Virus record (IMG/VR): IMGVR_UViG_3300047562_002538
Location: 1-42,061 of that record
Length of the DNA stretch: 42,061 nt
Origin: a virus
Direction: 5' to 3' (one strand)
Shown here piece by piece: positions 4,550-38,358 of the stretch. Numbering within the stretch: position 1 is the stretch's first letter; every line of letters starts with the position of its first letter. A program made the position numbers and the translations under genes. The notes under the pieces are model-generated. The model saw nothing but the letters and a program-made list of their open reading frames with translations. It did no database searches and had not been told where the DNA came from.

Positions 4550-5848
4550 ATGGAACCAACACACTCACAGACAGCAGATAGACAATGGAGAGCCTATCAA
4601 CTACAAAACGATTGGGCTACTAAAGATAGATGGAAAGGGATTACTAGACCCTATACAGCAGATGAAGTAGTGAGCCTACAAGGTTCGCGAGTTTATCCAG
4701 ATCAGTTTGCTGTCGACCAAGCTAACAAATTATGGACCTTGCTCCATAAAGAAGACTATGTAAACACCTTAGGTGCTCTCACAGGAATGCAGGCACTACA
4801 GCAGGTCAAAGCAGGACTCAAAGCAATATACCTATCAGGATGGCAGGTAGCAGGTGATGCTAACTTAGCCGGAGAGATGTATCCAGATCAATCGTTGTAT
4901 CCAGCAGACTCTGTACCAGCAGTGGTAAAGAAGATCAACAACACATTCCGCAGAGCAGATCAGATACAGTGGATGGAAGGACACGGCGATCGTGATTTCT
5001 TCGCACCCATCGTTGCTGATGCTGAAGCAGGGTTCGGTGGTGTGCTAAATGCTTTCGAACTGATGAAGGCCATGATCGCCGCAGGTGCCGCAGGGGTTCA
5101 CTTTGAAGATCAATTAGCGTCTGCCAAGAAGTGCGGACATATGGGAGGGAAAGTCCTTGTACCAACCAGAGAAGCAGTCAATAAACTTGTTGCCGCTCGT
5201 CTCGCTAGTGATGTTATGGGCGTGCCTACTCTTGTTATTGCACGAACTGATGCCGAAGCCGGTGACCTTATCACTAGCGACGTTGATGACAATGACAAGC
5301 CTTTTCTTACTGGCGAAAGAACTGTTGAAGGATTCTACAGAACCCGCAACGGAATCGACCAAGCAGTCAGCAGAGCAGTCGCCTACGCACCCTACGCAGA
5401 CCTCGTGTGGTGCGAAACAGGACGGCCTGACCTCGAGTTCGCCAAAGAGTTCGCAGAGCGAGTCCACAAGCACTTTCCAAATAAAATGCTAGCCTATAAC
5501 TGTTCACCTAGCTTCAATTGGAAGAAGAACCTAGACGACGCTACTATTGCCAAGTTCCAGCGTGAACTCGGTGCTATGGGCTACAAGTTCCAGTTCATTA
5601 CCTTGGCAGGTTTCCATAACTTAAACAACGGTATGTTTGAACTGGCACACGGTTATGCCCGCAACGGTATGACAGCATTTGTTGAAATGCAGGAGCGTGA
5701 GTTCGCTAATGCTGCCCTAGGATTTGAAGCAGTCAAGCATCAGCGTGAAGTCGGTACTGGCTACTTCGATCGTGTAACAACCACTATCGAAGCAGATGCA
5801 TCAACACAAGCACTGAAGGGATCAACCGAAGAGGAGCAGTTCCATTGA
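4550..5848 (+). CDS. aceA: Isocitrate lyase
   Basis: 432 residues, the normal length of bacterial AceA (434 in E. coli). The family signature KKCGH is at 193-197 with catalytic C195 in the same place as in E. coli; [24 protein letters not shown] and a final GSTEEEQFH are all present, so the enzyme looks complete. It splits isocitrate to succinate and glyoxylate, the first glyoxylate-shunt step. No malate synthase is in the window, so glyoxylate would go to host enzymes. It leads a block with an oxygenase, an aldolase and a desaturase, has a strong ribosome site (AGGAGG) and a near-perfect late promoter. Unusual cargo for a phage. Confidence 0.95.
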
Positions 5849-25613: not shown

Positions 25614-25912
25614 AATGTGAACAAGGCGATCTAGCCAAAATCATAATGAGTGTTCGTCCAACCAATATCGGCAAGACTGTATTAGTGGCAGAATACATTG
25701 GACACTTCCAGGCTGGAGAAAACTTCGCTTTCCGCGGGATCAATTGTACAGCACTAATCCCTGATCACTATTGGTGGATCGAATCGGAGTTTGGTTTGAA
25801 AAATCAATTAGGAGAAACTCCTAGAGCTTACATACCCGATACTTGGTTAGAACCAATCCGTCCAGAAAAATCCGTAGAAAAAGAAAAAACAAAACTTGAC
25901 ATCTTTGCCTAA
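25610..25912 (+). CDS. Hypothetical beta-rich protein, 100 aa
   Basis: ATGA overlap with the previous gene. MKCEQGDLAKIIMS, NIGKTVLVAEYIG, then ALIPDHYWWIESEFG and YIPDTWLEPIRP: an SH3-like small barrel by appearance, with two conserved-looking Trp. Such proteins are common in phages with unknown role. The Lys/Glu tail ends just before the tmRNA region. Confidence 0.6.
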   Translation: MKCEQGDLAKIIMSVRPTNIGKTVLVAEYIGHFQAGENFAFRGINCTALIPDHYWWIESEFGLKNQLGETPRAYIPDTWLEPIRPEKSVEKEKTKLDIFA

Positions 25913-26006
25913 AGGTTGTTAAATATAAGCTATTGCTGTATGAAGCAGACCTAAAATGCTTCGGACGCGGGTTCGATTCCCGCCAGCTCCACCAAAAGGT
26001 CATTTT

Positions 26007-26102
26007 ATGCACAGAAGAGAAAGTAGATTACACAGTCTTTATATACTAGGGACAACAATATTCATAGTATTGATTATCGAGTTTCTAGCAGTAACTTTTT
26101 GA
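26007..26102 (+). CDS. 31-aa membrane peptide encoded in the tmRNA intervening segment
   Basis: Between the two tmRNA pieces an ATG with AAAAGG eight bases upstream opens a frame that ends at TGA, one base before the 5' end of the coding piece. The peptide has a basic N terminus (MHRRESRLHSL) and a hydrophobic helix (YILGTTIFIVLIIEFLAVTF), oriented as an N-in single-pass membrane peptide. The ORF fills nearly the whole 109-base segment. It could be chance, but composition and ribosome site are both good. Confidence 0.45.
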   Translation: MHRRESRLHSLYILGTTIFIVLIIEFLAVTF

Positions 26103-26269
26103 AGGGGCTGACCTGGGTTCGACGGGGTAGTGAGTAGGCGAGTGGACAGCAGGGTAGGCGATGACCCTAAATCAAGCAAAACTTATAAACGCCAACGATT
26201 CGCGTTTTGCATTAGCAGCCTAAGAAACTAGCTATGCCGGGGTAGACATACCTTGTAACCCAAAATGTC

Positions 26270-26295
26270 AAAAGTGGCCTTCGGGCCACTTTTTC
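26270..26295 (+). terminator. Intrinsic terminator after tmRNA
   Basis: AAAAGTGGCC, loop TTCG, GGCCACTTTT, then T and C. The UUCG loop gives a very stable hairpin. Confidence 0.85.
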
Positions 26296-26325
26296 TTGAC
26301 TATCGATGATGTTTTGTTATATACT
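26296..26325 (+). promoter_or_regulatory. Sigma-70-type promoter upstream of ahpC
   Basis: TTGACT (26296-26301), 18 bases, TATACT (26320-26325). It begins at the last base of the terminator and would give a long leader (about 140 bases) containing the dyad at 26352. Confidence 0.5.
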
Positions 26326-26473: not shown

Positions 26474-27007
26474 ATGAAAACCGTAGGTGATAAACTAGAA
26501 GCTTTTGCCGTAACAGGCGTAAACCCAGGTAAAGATGATTTCTTTACTATCGATGAAAAATCTTTCGCTGGCAAGTGGAAGGTCATCGCTTTCTATCCAA
26601 AAGACTTTACTTTCGTATGCCCAACAGAAATCGTTGCCTACGACAAGATGTATCAGGACTTTGCTGATCGCGATGCTGTATTGCTGACTGGTAGCACAGA
26701 CAACGAGTTCTGTAAACTAGCTTGGCAAGCCAGCCACGAAGATCTCAAGAAGATCAAGCACATCCAGTTCGCTGACACTGCTCGTGACGAGCGCAGCCTA
26801 AGTGCTCAGCTGGGCGTGTTCTATGCTCCAGCAGGTGCTGCTCTCCGTGCCACTTTCATCGTTGATCCAGACAACGTCATCCAGCACGTTACTGTCAACA
26901 ACTTGAACGTTGGTCGTTCACCAGAAGAAACTCTGCGTATTCTTGACGCATTGCAAACTGGCGAACTCTGCGCTTGCAACCGTACTATCGGCGGCGAGAC
27001 ACTCTAA
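26474..27007 (+). CDS. ahpC: Peroxiredoxin AhpC (AhpD-dependent type)
   Basis: 177 residues. Peroxidatic C49 is in FTFVCPTE. The C terminus GELCACNRTIGGETL has C166 and C168, the C-x-C resolving pair known from AhpC proteins reduced by AhpD (as in Mycobacterium) and not by AhpF. Reduces H2O2, organic peroxides and peroxynitrite. Strong ribosome site (AAGGAG). Followed by a CxxC micropeptide and ahpD in one operon, behind an OxyR-like operator. Peroxiredoxins are seldom seen in phages. Confidence 0.95.
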   Translation: MKTVGDKLEAFAVTGVNPGKDDFFTIDEKSFAGKWKVIAFYPKDFTFVCPTEIVAYDKMYQDFADRDAVLLTGSTDNEFCKLAWQASHEDLKKIKHIQFADTARDERSLSAQLGVFYAPAGAALRATFIVDPDNVIQHVTVNNLNVGRSPEETLRILDALQTGELCACNRTIGGETL

Positions 27008-27018
27008 GGAGACGGGCA

Positions 27019-27093
27019 ATGACTTATCGTGAACAGTTTGAATACTTGAAGCAGTACCATTGCCCCACTTGTAAAACAGGAGAGAAACAATGA
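27019..27093 (+). CDS. 24-aa CxxC micropeptide between ahpC and ahpD
   Basis: Start with AAGGAG 8 bases upstream; its stop overlaps the ahpD start as ATGA, so it looks translated. The peptide is hydrophilic and ends in HCPTCKTGEKQ. H-C-P-T-C resembles a redox CxxC or half a zinc knuckle. No known component of this operon is so small. Could be a leader peptide coupling ahpD translation or a metal/redox helper. Confidence 0.55.
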   Translation: MTYREQFEYLKQYHCPTCKTGEKQ

Positions 27094-27605
27094 CTGCTTG
27101 GGTAGATCAACTCAAAGAAACTATTCCTGACTATGCCAAAGACACTAAGCTCAACATCGATGCTGTGGTCAAGCGTAGCACATTGGATCCAGTAGAAGCG
27201 GAAGCCTGCGCTCTAGCAGCCTTCTTTGCCACAGGTAATACCAAACTGTGGACCTGGGTACAACCTCAGCTAGCCGATCAAAAGGAAGCTGAAGCTGCGA
27301 TCACTGCCGCATCTTTGATGGCTATGAACAATGTTTGGTATCCCTATGTTGAGATGGCAGATGATGCCAGCCTAACAGGCCTGCCGGCACAATTGAGGAT
27401 GAACGCAATCGCCACCCACGGTGGCACAACTAAAGCTCGTTTCGAAGCCTATAGTTTGGCTGCTTCAATCGTAGGCAAATGTCATTTCTGTGTGAAAGCA
27501 CACTATGAAACGCTGAAGAAAGAAGGCTACACTGTAGAGCAACTGCGAGATATTGGTAGGATCGCAGCCGTAATGGCAGCTGTCAGTAAAGTGATGGCAA
27601 ATTGA
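27090..27605 (+). CDS. ahpD: AhpD alkylhydroperoxidase
   Basis: 171 residues, close to the 177 of M. tuberculosis AhpD. Catalytic set is complete: E119, C131-H-F-C134 and H138, matching E118, C130, C133 and H137 of that enzyme. AhpD relays electrons from lipoamide (dihydrolipoyl succinyltransferase/lipoamide dehydrogenase) to AhpC, so host 2-oxo-acid dehydrogenase parts would power the system. Ends at a strong terminator. Confidence 0.93.
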   Translation: MTAWVDQLKETIPDYAKDTKLNIDAVVKRSTLDPVEAEACALAAFFATGNTKLWTWVQPQLADQKEAEAAITAASLMAMNNVWYPYVEMADDASLTGLPAQLRMNAIATHGGTTKARFEAYSLAASIVGKCHFCVKAHYETLKKEGYTVEQLRDIGRIAAVMAAVSKVMAN

Positions 27606-28025: not shown

Positions 28026-28409
28026 ATGACGATGCACTTAGAAGGACCTTGGCTTACTACCACAGGTAAACGCAAGGGTAAACAAAAGTTCCGTAATTCC
28101 GATGAAGCTCGAAAGGCACGCGAATTGGAAGAATCTTGGAAAGCTCTTCAGAAAAAGTGGGGCATTGAAGCAGAAGAAAAGAAGCGTAAACGTGCTATGA
28201 CTGCAGAAACGTATTCTCCTTCGCCTGTATTTAAAAGAGAAACCGAAAAAATCAACAGTCTGCCATTTACAGGCGGTCCTTGTGTTCTACCGCCGCAGAA
28301 AGTATATACAGGAACTAAGATCAAAGGCATCGGTACGATGCATAAAAGCAATGCTGTACCTATCTTTTCGGACGAAGAGGCACAAGATATTGCCAAAATG
28401 CGTCGATAA
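28026..28409 (+). CDS. Conserved-type phage hypothetical protein, 127 aa
   Basis: Ribosome site TAGGAGAT and a good sigma-70-type promoter. Basic N-terminal half (LTTTGKRKGKQKFRN), then a Pro-rich stretch and a conserved-looking end YTGTKIKGIGTMHKSNAVP, FSDEEAQDIAKMRR. I recognise this C terminus from many T4-like marine phages, where the protein is hypothetical. Expressed early by promoter type. Confidence 0.7.
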   Translation: MTMHLEGPWLTTTGKRKGKQKFRNSDEARKARELEESWKALQKKWGIEAEEKKRKRAMTAETYSPSPVFKRETEKINSLPFTGGPCVLPPQKVYTGTKIKGIGTMHKSNAVPIFSDEEAQDIAKMRR

Positions 28410-34685: not shown

Positions 34686-36587
34686 ATGTCTAAGATCATC
34701 GGTATTGACCTCGGAACCACCAACTCTTGCGTGGCTATCGTCGAAAACGGAAATCCTAAAGTAATCGAAAATTCAGAAGGTGCTCGTACCACACCTAGTA
34801 TCGTCGCCTATACTCCAGACGAAATTCTCGTTGGTGCTACTGCTAAAAGACAAGCAGTTACTAATCCTAAGAATACTATCTACGCTGCTAAACGTTTGAT
34901 TGGACGTAAGTATTTTGAAAAAGAAGTACAAAAAGATCTTGATCTTATGCCCTACGAAATCGTCGAATCTAAAAACGGTGATGCATGGGTCAAAGCAAAT
35001 GATAAAGAACTAGCACCTCCGCAGATTTCTGCAGAAGTTCTTCGTAAGATGAAAAAGACTGCAGAAGACTATCTCGGCAGCACTGTCACACAGGCTGTGA
35101 TCACTGTGCCTGCTTACTTCAATGACCAACAGCGCCAGGCTACTAAAGATGCAGGACAGATTGCAGGATTAGAAGTATTGCGCATCATCAACGAACCCAC
35201 AGCAGCCGCTCTAGCCTATGGTGTCGATAAAACAGATAAGAAAGATCGTAAAGTTGCTGTCTATGACCTCGGTGGTGGTACATTTGATGTATCTATTATC
35301 GAGATCGCAGATGTCGACGGCGACAAGCAAATTGAAGTCCTTTCTACCAACGGCGATACATTCTTGGGTGGTGAAGATTTTGACCAAAGATTGATGGATC
35401 ACATCGTAGAAGAATTTAAGAAGTCACAGGGTGCAGATCTTTCGAAAGATCCAATCGCTCTACAGCGTATCAAAGCCGCTGCAGAAAGAACTAAGATTGA
35501 GCTTTCGTCTAGCCAGCAGAGTGAAATTAACGAACCCTATATCGCTATGAACAATGGTGCTCCGGTACATTTAACTATGAAAATCACCAGAGCTAAACTA
35601 GAAAGTCTAGTAGAGGATCTCATCGAGCGCAGCCTAGAGCCTTGCCGCATCGCTATGAAAGATGCCGGTATCGGAGCAGGAGATATCGACGAAGTGATCC
35701 TTGTTGGTGGGCAGACACGTATGCCTAAGGTGCAGGAAGCAGTTGAAAAACTATTTGGCAAAGCACCTCGCAAAGATGTCAATCCAGACGAAGCGGTGGC
35801 TGCAGGTGCTGCCATCCAGGGTGCTGTGCTAGGCGGAGACCGCACAGACGTTCTACTGTTAGATGTTACTCCTTTGAGTTTAGGTATCGAAACACTAGGC
35901 GGAGTAATGACCAAACTGATCCAAAAGAACACAACTATTCCTACCAAGGCCAGCCAAACATTCTCCACAGCAGAAGATAACCAGCCAGCAGTAGATATCA
36001 AAGTGTTCCAGGGTGAGCGTGAGCTATGTCAGCACAACAAATTGTTGGGCGAGTTCAAGCTAGACGGTATTGCTCCTGCTCGCAGAGGCATGCCTCAGAT
36101 CGAAGTTACCTTTGACATTGATGCTAACGGTATCATGAATATTTCTGCTAAAGACAAGAGCACAGGCAAAGAAAACAAGATCACCATCAAGAGTGACAGT
36201 GGATTGAGCAAAGAGCAGATCGAACAGATGATCCGCGATGCTGAGATCAATGCCGAGGCAGATAAGAAGGCACGTGAACTAATCGAGACTCGCAACTCTG
36301 CAGAAGCACAGATGCATGTGGTCAAGAAAGATCTAGAGGAATACGGGGACAAGATCAAGCCTGAGGAAAAGGCAGAGATCGAATCTGTGATCACAGCAGT
36401 AGAATCAGCCATGAAGGGCGACGATCCTGCTAAAATCAAAGAAGAACTAGAAAAGGTTACACCTGCTATGAAATCTTTGATGGATGTTCGATTAGCAGAA
36501 GAGCAGGCCAAAGCACAGGGAAACAGTGCTCCGGAAGATGATGTAGTAGAAGCTACATTTACTGAGAAGGAAAACAAAAATGGCTAA
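34686..36587 (+). CDS. dnaK: Chaperone DnaK (Hsp70)
   Basis: 633 residues, full length (E. coli 638). ATPase motifs [27 protein letters not shown] and [14 protein letters not shown]; substrate-binding domain with [18 protein letters not shown] and the linker DVLLLDV; C terminus ends [15 protein letters not shown], like the EEVD-type tail of proteobacterial DnaK. No DnaJ or GrpE in the window, so host partners would be used. Complete Hsp70 genes are uncommon in phages. Shares its leader with hsp20. Confidence 0.97.
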
Positions 36588-36738
36588 TGGTGGAAAAGGT
36601 TCTAGTCCGCGCCCGTACAGCGTTGATCAAAAAACCTTTGACGCTAACTGGGATGCTATTTTTAAAAAGAACAAGTCGGAAGTCGTAGAGATTTCCGACA
36701 ACAAGATTGAGGATTACTCAGAAGAGGATCCTCAATAA
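36580..36738 (+). CDS. Small phage protein, 52 aa ([11 protein letters not shown] type)
   Basis: Overlaps the dnaK stop by eight bases, with GAAGG before the ATG. N-terminal [20 protein letters not shown] is a short motif I recognise in many phages as a conserved hypothetical; the C terminus is acidic. No function known. Lies between dnaK and the hsp20 leader. Confidence 0.65.
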
Positions 36739-36781
36739 GGGCATAGGGCCCATATTATCTTACTTTATAAGGAGATTAAAA
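36739..36781 (+). promoter_or_regulatory. hsp20 leader element shared with dnaK
   Basis: Hairpin GGGC-ATAGG-GCCC (36739-36751) starts one base after the stop of the previous gene, then five bases, then the same 20-base element as before dnaK (36757-36776). Compared with the dnaK hairpin, the second stem pair has changed from A-T to G-C on both sides, a compensatory change that supports a conserved RNA structure. Confidence 0.55.
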
Positions 36782-37219
36782 ATGACGCAACTACAACGTT
36801 TTGATACAGCCGCTCTAAATAGAGCATTAGTCGGATTTGATCGTATTTTCGACGACATGGAGCGTAGATTCGCTAACAGCGTTTCTACTAACTATCCTCC
36901 ATATAACATCGCAAGACTAGAAGAAAATCTCTACGAGATCGAACTAGCTGTAACAGGCTTTGCCAAAGATGAAATCGCTGTCACAGTAGAAGCAGACAAA
37001 CTTGTTATCACAGGACAGAGAAACAAGGAAGAAGATACTGGTGCTGATTTCCTACACAGAGGATTGGCCTTCCGAGATTTCGAGCGTACCTTCACGCTAG
37101 CTGATCATATGAAGATCCGTTCCGCAGAGATCAAGAACGGTGTGCTAACCATTCGCATCGAACGTGAGATCCCTGAGGAAATGAAACCTCGTGTGATTGA
37201 CATCGTAGAAGTTAAGTAA
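36782..37219 (+). CDS. Small heat shock protein (Hsp20/IbpA family)
   Basis: 145 residues from ATG 36782; the longer frame to 36707 runs through the leader. N terminus ALVGFDRIFDDMERRF is IbpA-like, and the alpha-crystallin domain has YPPYNIARLEENLYEIELAV, GFAKDEIAVTVEADKLVITG and GVLTIRIEREIPEE. It holds unfolding proteins for DnaK. Hsp20 is common in T4-like cyanophages. Coupled here with dnaK by genome position and an identical leader. Confidence 0.93.
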   Translation: MTQLQRFDTAALNRALVGFDRIFDDMERRFANSVSTNYPPYNIARLEENLYEIELAVTGFAKDEIAVTVEADKLVITGQRNKEEDTGADFLHRGLAFRDFERTFTLADHMKIRSAEIKNGVLTIRIEREIPEEMKPRVIDIVEVK

Positions 37220-37229
37220 TATAATAATA

Positions 37230-37247
37230 GGGGGAGGTAACTCCCCC
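37230..37247 (+). terminator. GC-rich hairpin, probable terminator
   Basis: GGGGGAG, loop GTAA, CTCCCCC, without a good T tract (GTTAAACTTT follows). Ends the hsp20 message or protects its 3' end. Confidence 0.6.
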
Positions 37248-37269
37248 GTTAAACTTTAGAAAGAATATC

Positions 37270-37569
37270 ATGCCCACAGAAGCCAAAATTGACGAAAAAG
37301 TATCTACTAAGATTTCACCTCCAAGGTTATGGAAAGTTGTGTTTCTAAATGACGATAAAACTCCTATGGAGTTCGTGATCAATCTTCTTAGCAATATCTT
37401 TAAACATTCTGAAACTAAGGCCAAAGATATTACTTTAGAAATACATAATACGGGTAGCGCGATAGCTGGAATCTATGCTTATGAAATCGCCGAACATAAA
37501 AGTGTAGAAGCCACACATCTAGCTCGAGCGAACGGATTTCCTTTGAGAATACAAATCGAAGAGGAATGA
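37270..37569 (+). CDS. clpS: ClpS, ClpAP adaptor
   Basis: 99 residues, typical ClpS length. Core LWKVVFLNDDKTPMEFVINL, FKHSETKAKDITLEIHNTGS and GIYAYEIAEHKSVEATHLAR gives the N-degron-binding pocket (N-D-D and the H of the helix) and the ClpA contact. Delivers N-end-rule substrates to host ClpAP. With the tmRNA, whose tagged products also go to Clp proteases, the phage could redirect proteolysis. ATGA overlap with the next gene. Confidence 0.93.
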   Translation: MPTEAKIDEKVSTKISPPRLWKVVFLNDDKTPMEFVINLLSNIFKHSETKAKDITLEIHNTGSAIAGIYAYEIAEHKSVEATHLARANGFPLRIQIEEE

Positions 37570-37823
37570 CCTTAGATGACATCAAGATAATCTCTTATAA
37601 TCAAACTTCAGCCAAAAGATTTGGGTACTGGGTTCGAGTTAGAGATTACAGACAAGTATCAGGAAGATACGCCAGAAAATCTTTTATCAAATTCTTAGAA
37701 GATAGCCTGGGCCCATTAGGGGAACGCTGGAATTATACCAAATACGAAAATGGTATGTACGAAATCAAATTTAACGACGAGCGAGATCTCTTGATTTTTT
37801 TATTGAAAGCTAAAGGCAGTTAA
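37566..37823 (+). CDS. Hypothetical protein, 85 aa
   Basis: ATGA overlap with clpS. Basic protein: TSAKRFGYWVRVRDYRQVSG, RYARKSFIKFLEDSLGPLG, then YTKYENGMYEIKFNDERDLL. Beta-alpha-beta style, soluble. No family recognised. Confidence 0.55.
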   Translation: MTLDDIKIISYNQTSAKRFGYWVRVRDYRQVSGRYARKSFIKFLEDSLGPLGERWNYTKYENGMYEIKFNDERDLLIFLLKAKGS

Positions 37824-37833
37824 ATAACAGACT

Positions 37834-38358
37834 ATGAGCTTAAAAGAACTTACCAAAGATCTACACGATCAAGCAGAAAATACACCGTTTATGAAGGCAG
37901 TGTTTGCTAAAAATCTACCTTTAGAATTATGGACTGATTGGACATACCAACGCAGTCTATTCTACGGTGCTATCGAGGGTGCTGCAGATGCTGCTGGACT
38001 ATTGGACGACCTGCCTGGAATACGACGATCATTTTATCTATATCTAGACTACAAAGAAATGGCGGGAGATCAGCGTCATCAGTTTAAACCCAGTGTTATG
38101 GAATATCACAAATATATCATCAGTCTTTATCCCGATGCCGATAGATTGATGGCACATCTCTATACTTGGCATATGGGAGATCTATTTGGCGGACAGATGA
38201 TCAAGAAAATCATAGATGCACCGCATCGACACCTAGAGTTCAAAGATTCTAAAACACTGATGACTAATATACGCACCAAGCTCAAAGACGAAATGGCTGA
38301 CGAAGCTAGAGTAGCATTTGAGTGGGCTATCGAAATGTTGAATGAGTACAAAGTATGA
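37834..38358 (+). CDS. Heme oxygenase
   Basis: 174 residues, shorter than the 230-240 of cyanobacterial HO1. Proximal heme ligand H11 in DLHDQAENTPFM and the distal-helix motif MGDLFGGQM at 114-122 (GDLSGGQ in the family). Opens heme to biliverdin IXalpha, CO and Fe2+ with O2 and reduced ferredoxin. Directly followed, with ATGA overlap, by a bilin reductase, so biliverdin is made for a phycobilin. GTTAAATA at 37819 may be the promoter. Confidence 0.9.
   Translation: MSLKELTKDLHDQAENTPFMKAVFAKNLPLELWTDWTYQRSLFYGAIEGAADAAGLLDDLPGIRRSFYLYLDYKEMAGDQRHQFKPSVMEYHKYIISLYPDADRLMAHLYTWHMGDLFGGQMIKKIIDAPHRHLEFKDSKTLMTNIRTKLKDEMADEARVAFEWAIEMLNEYKV

Follow-up and report, generated by a model that had tools for sequence, protein, structure and literature searches.

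Among 133 unique phage tmRNA structures, 53 are of the two-piece form, and one such tmRNA has been described in phage Melnitz (Buchholz et al, 2022; PMC9004378). A tRNA gene and a repeat are recorded in two intervening segments in the tmRNA database paper (PMC11915505). A permuted tmRNA gene on a phage is already published, and the new part of the locus described here is a probable coding unit within the intervening segment (IVS). A search of the open-access literature returned no report of a coding unit inside a tmRNA intervening segment. The locus had originally been predicted, from the letters of the DNA, to encode a phage-borne permuted tmRNA; the phage setting of this prediction is upheld, whereas the form is not new as a kind.

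A complete permuted tmRNA gene

The stretch of DNA analyzed here in full (the window) is IMGVR_UViG_3300047562_002538, 42,061 nt in length, and holds a complete permuted beta-type tmRNA gene at about 25934-26294 on the plus strand. ARAGORN called a permuted tmRNA (tmRNA*) at 25902-26314 with the tag ANDSRFALAA, and two permuted Rfam models matched over their full length and above their cut-offs: beta_tmRNA (RF01850; positions 1-331, 156 bits, E 2.8e-48, cut-off 84) and tmRNA_permuted (RF04321; 139.8 bits, cut-off 47). The identity of the gene is secure, and the original prediction of a two-piece, alanine-type tmRNA with a proteobacterial-type tag, followed by TAA, agrees with it. The linear 42-kb contig, itself a fragment, contains this single tmRNA and no second 3' half that pairs better with the 5' half.

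The 3' acceptor half comes first in the window and the 5' half follows. As had been predicted and as can be read directly in the sequence, the two acceptor strands pair in 7/7 positions including G3-U70, CCA is encoded, and 109 nt separate the halves. G3-U70 is present in 196 of 197 parsed relatives. The P2 helix, which joins the two pieces, covaries in a matched manner in 150 of 156 relatives, with GTTGT/GCAAC in 82, GCTGT/ACAGC in 68, and a mixed version in just 4. At the level of sequence, these comparisons demonstrate the covariation of P2 and the anatomy of the predicted tmRNA, which is listed here together with the other features of the locus:

25896..25924, +, likely sigma-70 promoter, TTGACA-N17-TTAAAT, immediately ahead of the precursor (sequence)
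25935..25994, +, 3' (acceptor) piece, 5' end approximate (sequence, RF01850 alignment, P2 covariation)
25935-25939, +, P2 strand of the 3' piece
25942-25962, +, local hairpin GAAGCA/UGCUUC in the 3' piece
25967-25983, +, T arm (sequence)
25984-25990, +, acceptor strand CAGCTCC of the 3' piece (sequence)
25991-25994, +, ACCA (sequence)
25995..26103, +, IVS of 109 nt, absent from the mature tmRNA (sequence, Rfam)
25993-26000 with 26094-26101, +, closing stem of the IVS, stacked on the acceptor (fold, covariation)
25995..25999, +, Shine-Dalgarno (SD)-like AAAGG within the closing stem, immediately behind CCA and separated from the ATG by 7 nt (sequence)
26007..26102, +, micro-ORF of 31 aa, MHRRESRLHSLYILGTTIFIVLIIEFLAVTF*, with a predicted single membrane segment (sequence, dN/dS, hydropathy)
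26104..26294, +, 5' (mRNA-like) piece including the tag and the 3' hairpin, 3' end approximate (ARAGORN, Rfam, P2)
26104-26110, +, acceptor strand GGGGCTG of the 5' piece (sequence)
26146-26150, +, P2 strand ACAGC of the 5' piece
26191..26223, +, tag frame ANDSRFALAA (26191-26220) and TAA (26221-26223) (ARAGORN)
26270..26294, +, probable intrinsic terminator AAAAGTGGCC-TTCG-GGCCACTTTTT (sequence; terminal hairpin in the RF01850 alignment)

A promoter with an exact -35 box and at most two mismatches overall lies upstream of 30 of 160 relatives, as compared to 1 of 160 shuffled sequences. The TTGACA-N17-TTAAAT element is absent from the list of a stricter scanner because the second position of TTAAAT is not A. 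The terminal hairpin is likewise missing from the list of this scanner, perhaps because its T run pairs with upstream As.

A micro-ORF inside the intervening segment

The 109-nt gap had been taken for a plain loop, a reading that missed the coding features inside it. An ATG at 26007 opens a frame that closes on a UGA (26100-26102) one base ahead of the 5' piece. Its product appears to be a small membrane peptide, as suggested by a hydropathy of 2.61 over 17 residues. The only homologue found for this peptide family is encoded in the related phage locus L092; dN/dS between the two is 0.19, and the differences at codon positions 1/2/3 number 9/6/16, with a Fisher p of about 0.001 on rounded counts. 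Judged from this one homologue, the micro-ORF is likely a real gene. PHROGs yielded no match for the peptide, and 50,697 phage records contained no credible match. Two spacers that a pattern search had proposed as window-like (L333 and L334) both proved false.

Nested units recur in phage relatives

Pattern scans and a protein scan of viral contigs provided at least 216 permuted tmRNA calls, in a sample selected through one phage gene and through similarity in the acceptor piece; it is no census. Among the matches listed, an SD-like motif with an ORF behind it occurs in 31 of 115 non-redundant phage IVSs; about a quarter of the phage relatives analyzed show the nested pattern, as compared to none of the bacterial relatives. 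Nineteen of these units end on a UGA adjoining the 5' piece, five end earlier, and seven, like the L055 spacer ORF that runs into the 5' piece, have no stop before it. A strongly hydrophobic 17-residue stretch is present in 22 of the 31 unit peptides. In bacterial permuted relatives, the IVS measures 5-49 nt and holds no nested unit; four bacterial IVSs satisfy a loose SD-plus-GTG/TTG rule solely by read-through into the tmRNA. The 216-nt spacer of another phage locus, L158, carries two consecutive small membrane-peptide ORFs, MIGYVLFLLFWLVFGVFYF... and MENLAKFLLIVFPILCLLLTTLSVD.

One alternative is that the window carries an ordinary phage permuted tmRNA whose 109-nt segment is no more than a spacer with a processing stem, in which a reading frame happens to be open by chance. 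No SD-plus-ORF unit occurs in 84 of the 115 phage IVSs, and the unit must therefore be dispensable for the tmRNA; the spacers of most phage relatives are non-coding hairpins. A UGA ahead of the 5' piece also occurs in non-coding spacers, so a stop at this place needs no coding explanation. Chance does not, however, account for the frequency of the frames: of the 62 non-redundant phage IVSs with a length of 75 nt or more, 22 contain an ORF that starts with ATG, spans no fewer than 20 codons, and ends at the UGA by the 5' piece (SD not required), whereas dinucleotide shuffles predict 1.7. SD-like motif and ORF also co-occur across IVSs (Fisher p 9e-7).

Comparison of related spacers argues in the same direction. 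In the MND peptide family, L118 compared with L231, L244, L251, L242, and L138 gives dN/dS values of 0.01 to 0.11; the L118/L231 pair (0.01) differs at 13 bases with one amino-acid change. Together with the window pair, the range is 0.01-0.19. Some other pairs are high, such as L258/L293 with 0.66. Differences at the three codon positions sum to 83/40/103 in coding IVS pairs as compared to 47/39/35 in non-coding pairs, which lack the third-position excess; these counts are descriptive because the pairs are not independent. From these comparisons, which demonstrate an excess of ORFs over chance and purifying selection on their sequences, the spacer ORFs, taken as a class, are well supported as real genes. 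For the window by itself, the evidence against a chance ORF is a single pair (p about 0.001), and we consider such an ORF unlikely.

The closing stem overlaps the predicted coding signals

The IVS is predicted to be closed by a stem stacked on the acceptor. Position by position, this stem is paired in 90-112 of the 115 non-redundant phage genes, and at its second position A-U, U-A, and G-C are exchanged among them, which demonstrates covariation of the predicted pairs. The fold of 25984-26110 has a z of -2.74. For L092, the corresponding z is -0.03 over a stretch without part of the 5' acceptor, and the closing stem is present. In coding spacers, SD and last codons occupy the two opposing strands of this stem; in the window, the SD (AAAGG) is weak and buried in the predicted stem. 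Because the SD and the last codons are opposite strands, the arrangement suggests a timing in which the SD would be free solely ahead of 3' strand synthesis, or once the segment is melted or released.

This overlap also invites a reading in which the nested ORF acts as a regulatory leader instead of encoding a functional protein: passage of a ribosome would open or close the stem and time tmRNA maturation, and stop-less versions, once cleaved, would become nonstop messages rescued by the tmRNA in an ArfA-like feedback. The strands of the closing stem are indeed SD and C-terminal codons, and there is no in-frame stop before the 5' piece in 7 of 31 units and in the isolate Melnitz. Yet conservation of the amino-acid sequence, for the most part in the form of a membrane segment, goes beyond what an effect of passage would need, and the ORF in the window ends on a UGA of its own. 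We regard a purely regulatory role as improbable, to about the same degree as a chance ORF.

Phylogeny and hosts

The original prediction had also proposed that the permuted form would speak to host identity. Named isolates with a permuted tmRNA infect gamma- and betaproteobacterial hosts: Xanthomonas, Stenotrophomonas, Pseudomonas, Acinetobacter, Bordetella, and Alcaligenes. Conversely, two Pseudomonas genomes, one Lysobacterales genome, and one Vreelandella genome have the standard tmRNA, with no permuted gene above cut-off. Since the hosts of the isolates vary, and since the Pseudomonas and Lysobacterales genomes tested use the standard form, the permuted form is no host marker and this part of the prediction does not hold.

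A related idea, that the gene was recently captured from a host and marks that host as beta-proteobacterial, draws on the top Rfam model, which is betaproteobacterial, and on the CTTTTGATGGGG closure, which is common to small-genome Burkholderiales relatives. In a rough tree, however, the window falls into a phage-only clade (74 sequences, support 0.986), and the bacterial sequences form two separate clades. Among the matches listed, the closest phage sequence is 86% identical over 147 nt as compared to 79% over 116 nt for the closest bacterial one, and the permuted form also occurs in isolates whose hosts are gammaproteobacterial. Recent capture is accordingly very unlikely, and the least probable of the explanations considered here.

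Long tags in sister phages

The tag of the window is ordinary. Many related phages encode diversified tags of 24-33 aa, which group into families, among them ANADTFDFSAMSFTGNTVSGKSKVALAA and AKASTGEVTVSGKNVKFSARTAKAESFAV. Synonymous change exceeds non-synonymous change in these, with a mean pS of 0.41 as compared to a mean pN of 0.16 in the former. Several of the long tags end other than in LAA. One family with tags of 26-31 aa (L031, L046, L055, L067, L069, L216, L222, L225, L239, L258, L259, L303, and L321) shares a core like (D/E)F..AxSFTGN(T/S)V before an ALAA-type end; in L031 and L258, the long part is followed by a normal ANDS(R/K)FALAA tag. Another family (L109, L175, L227, L247, L274, L286, L302, L306, L311, and L312) has the tags xxVTVSGKxxKFSARTAKxxSLAV or SFAV, which end in AV instead of AA. 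Of the bacterial tags parsed, 29 of 30 have 10 aa, and the exception (L485) appears to be a miscall. None of the motifs of the long tags was found inside longer phage proteins (frames of more than 90 codons in the fetched loci), and the search thus yielded no donor protein.

A scan of viral contigs with the tag pattern gave seven matches, for one of which (L092) ARAGORN called a tmRNA. Nearly all of the 119 matches of a loosened pattern in bacterial genomes were chance coding; ARAGORN found four tmRNAs among them, all of the standard form with the tag ANDTRFALAA.

Genomic surroundings

The linear contig carries phage structural, lysis, and nucleotide-metabolism genes and is of a freshwater-type phage. 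For a gene at 28026-28409, matches were found in Delftia phage PhiW-14, Acidovorax phage ACP17, and two Kyanoviridae phages. Upstream, the tmRNA directly adjoins a phrog_2529 gene, with a DUF454 gene slightly further away; directly downstream lie AhpC and AhpD-like peroxide-defence genes (26474-27605). In 46 to 53 of the fetched loci, a permuted tmRNA has homologues of AhpC, AhpD, and DUF454 no further than 6 kb away.

Elsewhere in the window, genes for DnaK, Hsp20, ClpS, and heme oxygenase are clustered at 34686-38358, a block that recurs in about 30 related loci. ClpS steers ClpAP away from tmRNA-tagged proteins, and its presence beside a phage tmRNA is an intriguing pairing. An isocitrate lyase is encoded at 4550-5848 (Pfam ICL, 352 bits), with a relative solely in L056 among the fetched loci. 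In two related phage loci, ARAGORN called a tRNA-Pyl with anticodon CTA (L029, 2400-2474; L030, 1780-1855), possibly an amber suppressor tRNA.

A model for a probable dual gene

Taken together, we favor as probable the explanation that the window carries a phage permuted tmRNA gene that at the same time encodes a micro-protein. We infer the transcription unit, the processing order, translation, and membrane location as follows. A single transcript, probably initiated at the gene's own sigma-70 promoter, would contain the acceptor piece, the IVS, and the tag piece in this order. According to the established biology of permuted tmRNAs, host enzymes would cleave at G1 and behind the CCA, and both pieces would pair via the acceptor and P2 to form an alanine-charged, tag-adding tmRNA. 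The IVS would act as a mini-mRNA with SD, start, 31 codons, and a UGA that ends a single base ahead of the expected RNase P site, its SD sitting in the stem that joins both acceptor strands. Ribosomes may load on the nascent RNA or after release of the segment, and re-formation of the stem would allow the tmRNA to mature. The likeliest role of the peptide is that of a small membrane-acting infection factor (an inhibitor, a holin-like, or an exclusion peptide) alongside the rescue RNA.

A broader extension is possible but tentative: phage permuted tmRNAs might be dual-output genes in general, in which the excised spacer is a conserved mini-mRNA encoding a membrane peptide, a ribosome-binding site in the maturation stem couples peptide synthesis to ribosome rescue, and stop-less spacers, once released, are themselves tmRNA substrates. 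If the dual-gene explanation is true, the discarded segment of permuted tmRNAs recurrently harbors concealed genes for membrane peptides, which have probably gone unnoticed since the full span of a tmRNA is annotated as RNA. The explanation would also offer a possible reason why phages retain the permuted form even where the host relies on the one-piece form, and would make it directly testable which purpose tmRNA serves in phages. The long conserved tags of the sister phages point the same way, toward reshaping of both outputs of the gene by phages.

Comparison with known systems

Burkholderiales tmRNAs of the RF01850/RF04321 type share with the window the gene order, acceptor, T arm, P2, and a 10-aa tag ending in AA, but their spacers of 5-49 nt lack a nested unit, whereas the window has 109 nt and a unit. 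Closer in this respect is Melnitz, a T4-like marine phage of Methylophilales (PMC9004378), which also encodes a permuted tmRNA. Its spacer (L505, MZ577097, about 46096-46218) likewise contains a GGAG upstream of an in-frame ORF, MFKWLSKTRLVVITRDYFRERNRKADAKIPKYLSGTRSVYD..., which lies within the annotated SsrA and is itself unannotated in the record; homologues of this ORF were found in the four Melnitz genomes and nowhere beyond. The Melnitz tmRNA differs from that of the window in being alpha-type (RF01849) and adjoining a glutamine riboswitch, and its spacer ORF enters the 5' piece without a stop, whereas the window ORF has a UGA.

The stop-less IVS ORFs find a possible parallel in the nonstop-message regulation of arfA, in that both would involve a small ORF whose message depends on tmRNA (PMC10107115); the window ORF differs in having a stop codon. 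A second gene within an IVS, as proposed for the window, is known from GCA-2688965 sp002688965, where a tRNA-Ala gene inside the segment was termed a unique feature (PMC11915505). That gene is an RNA gene in one sequence, whereas the phage units are recurrent and protein-coding.
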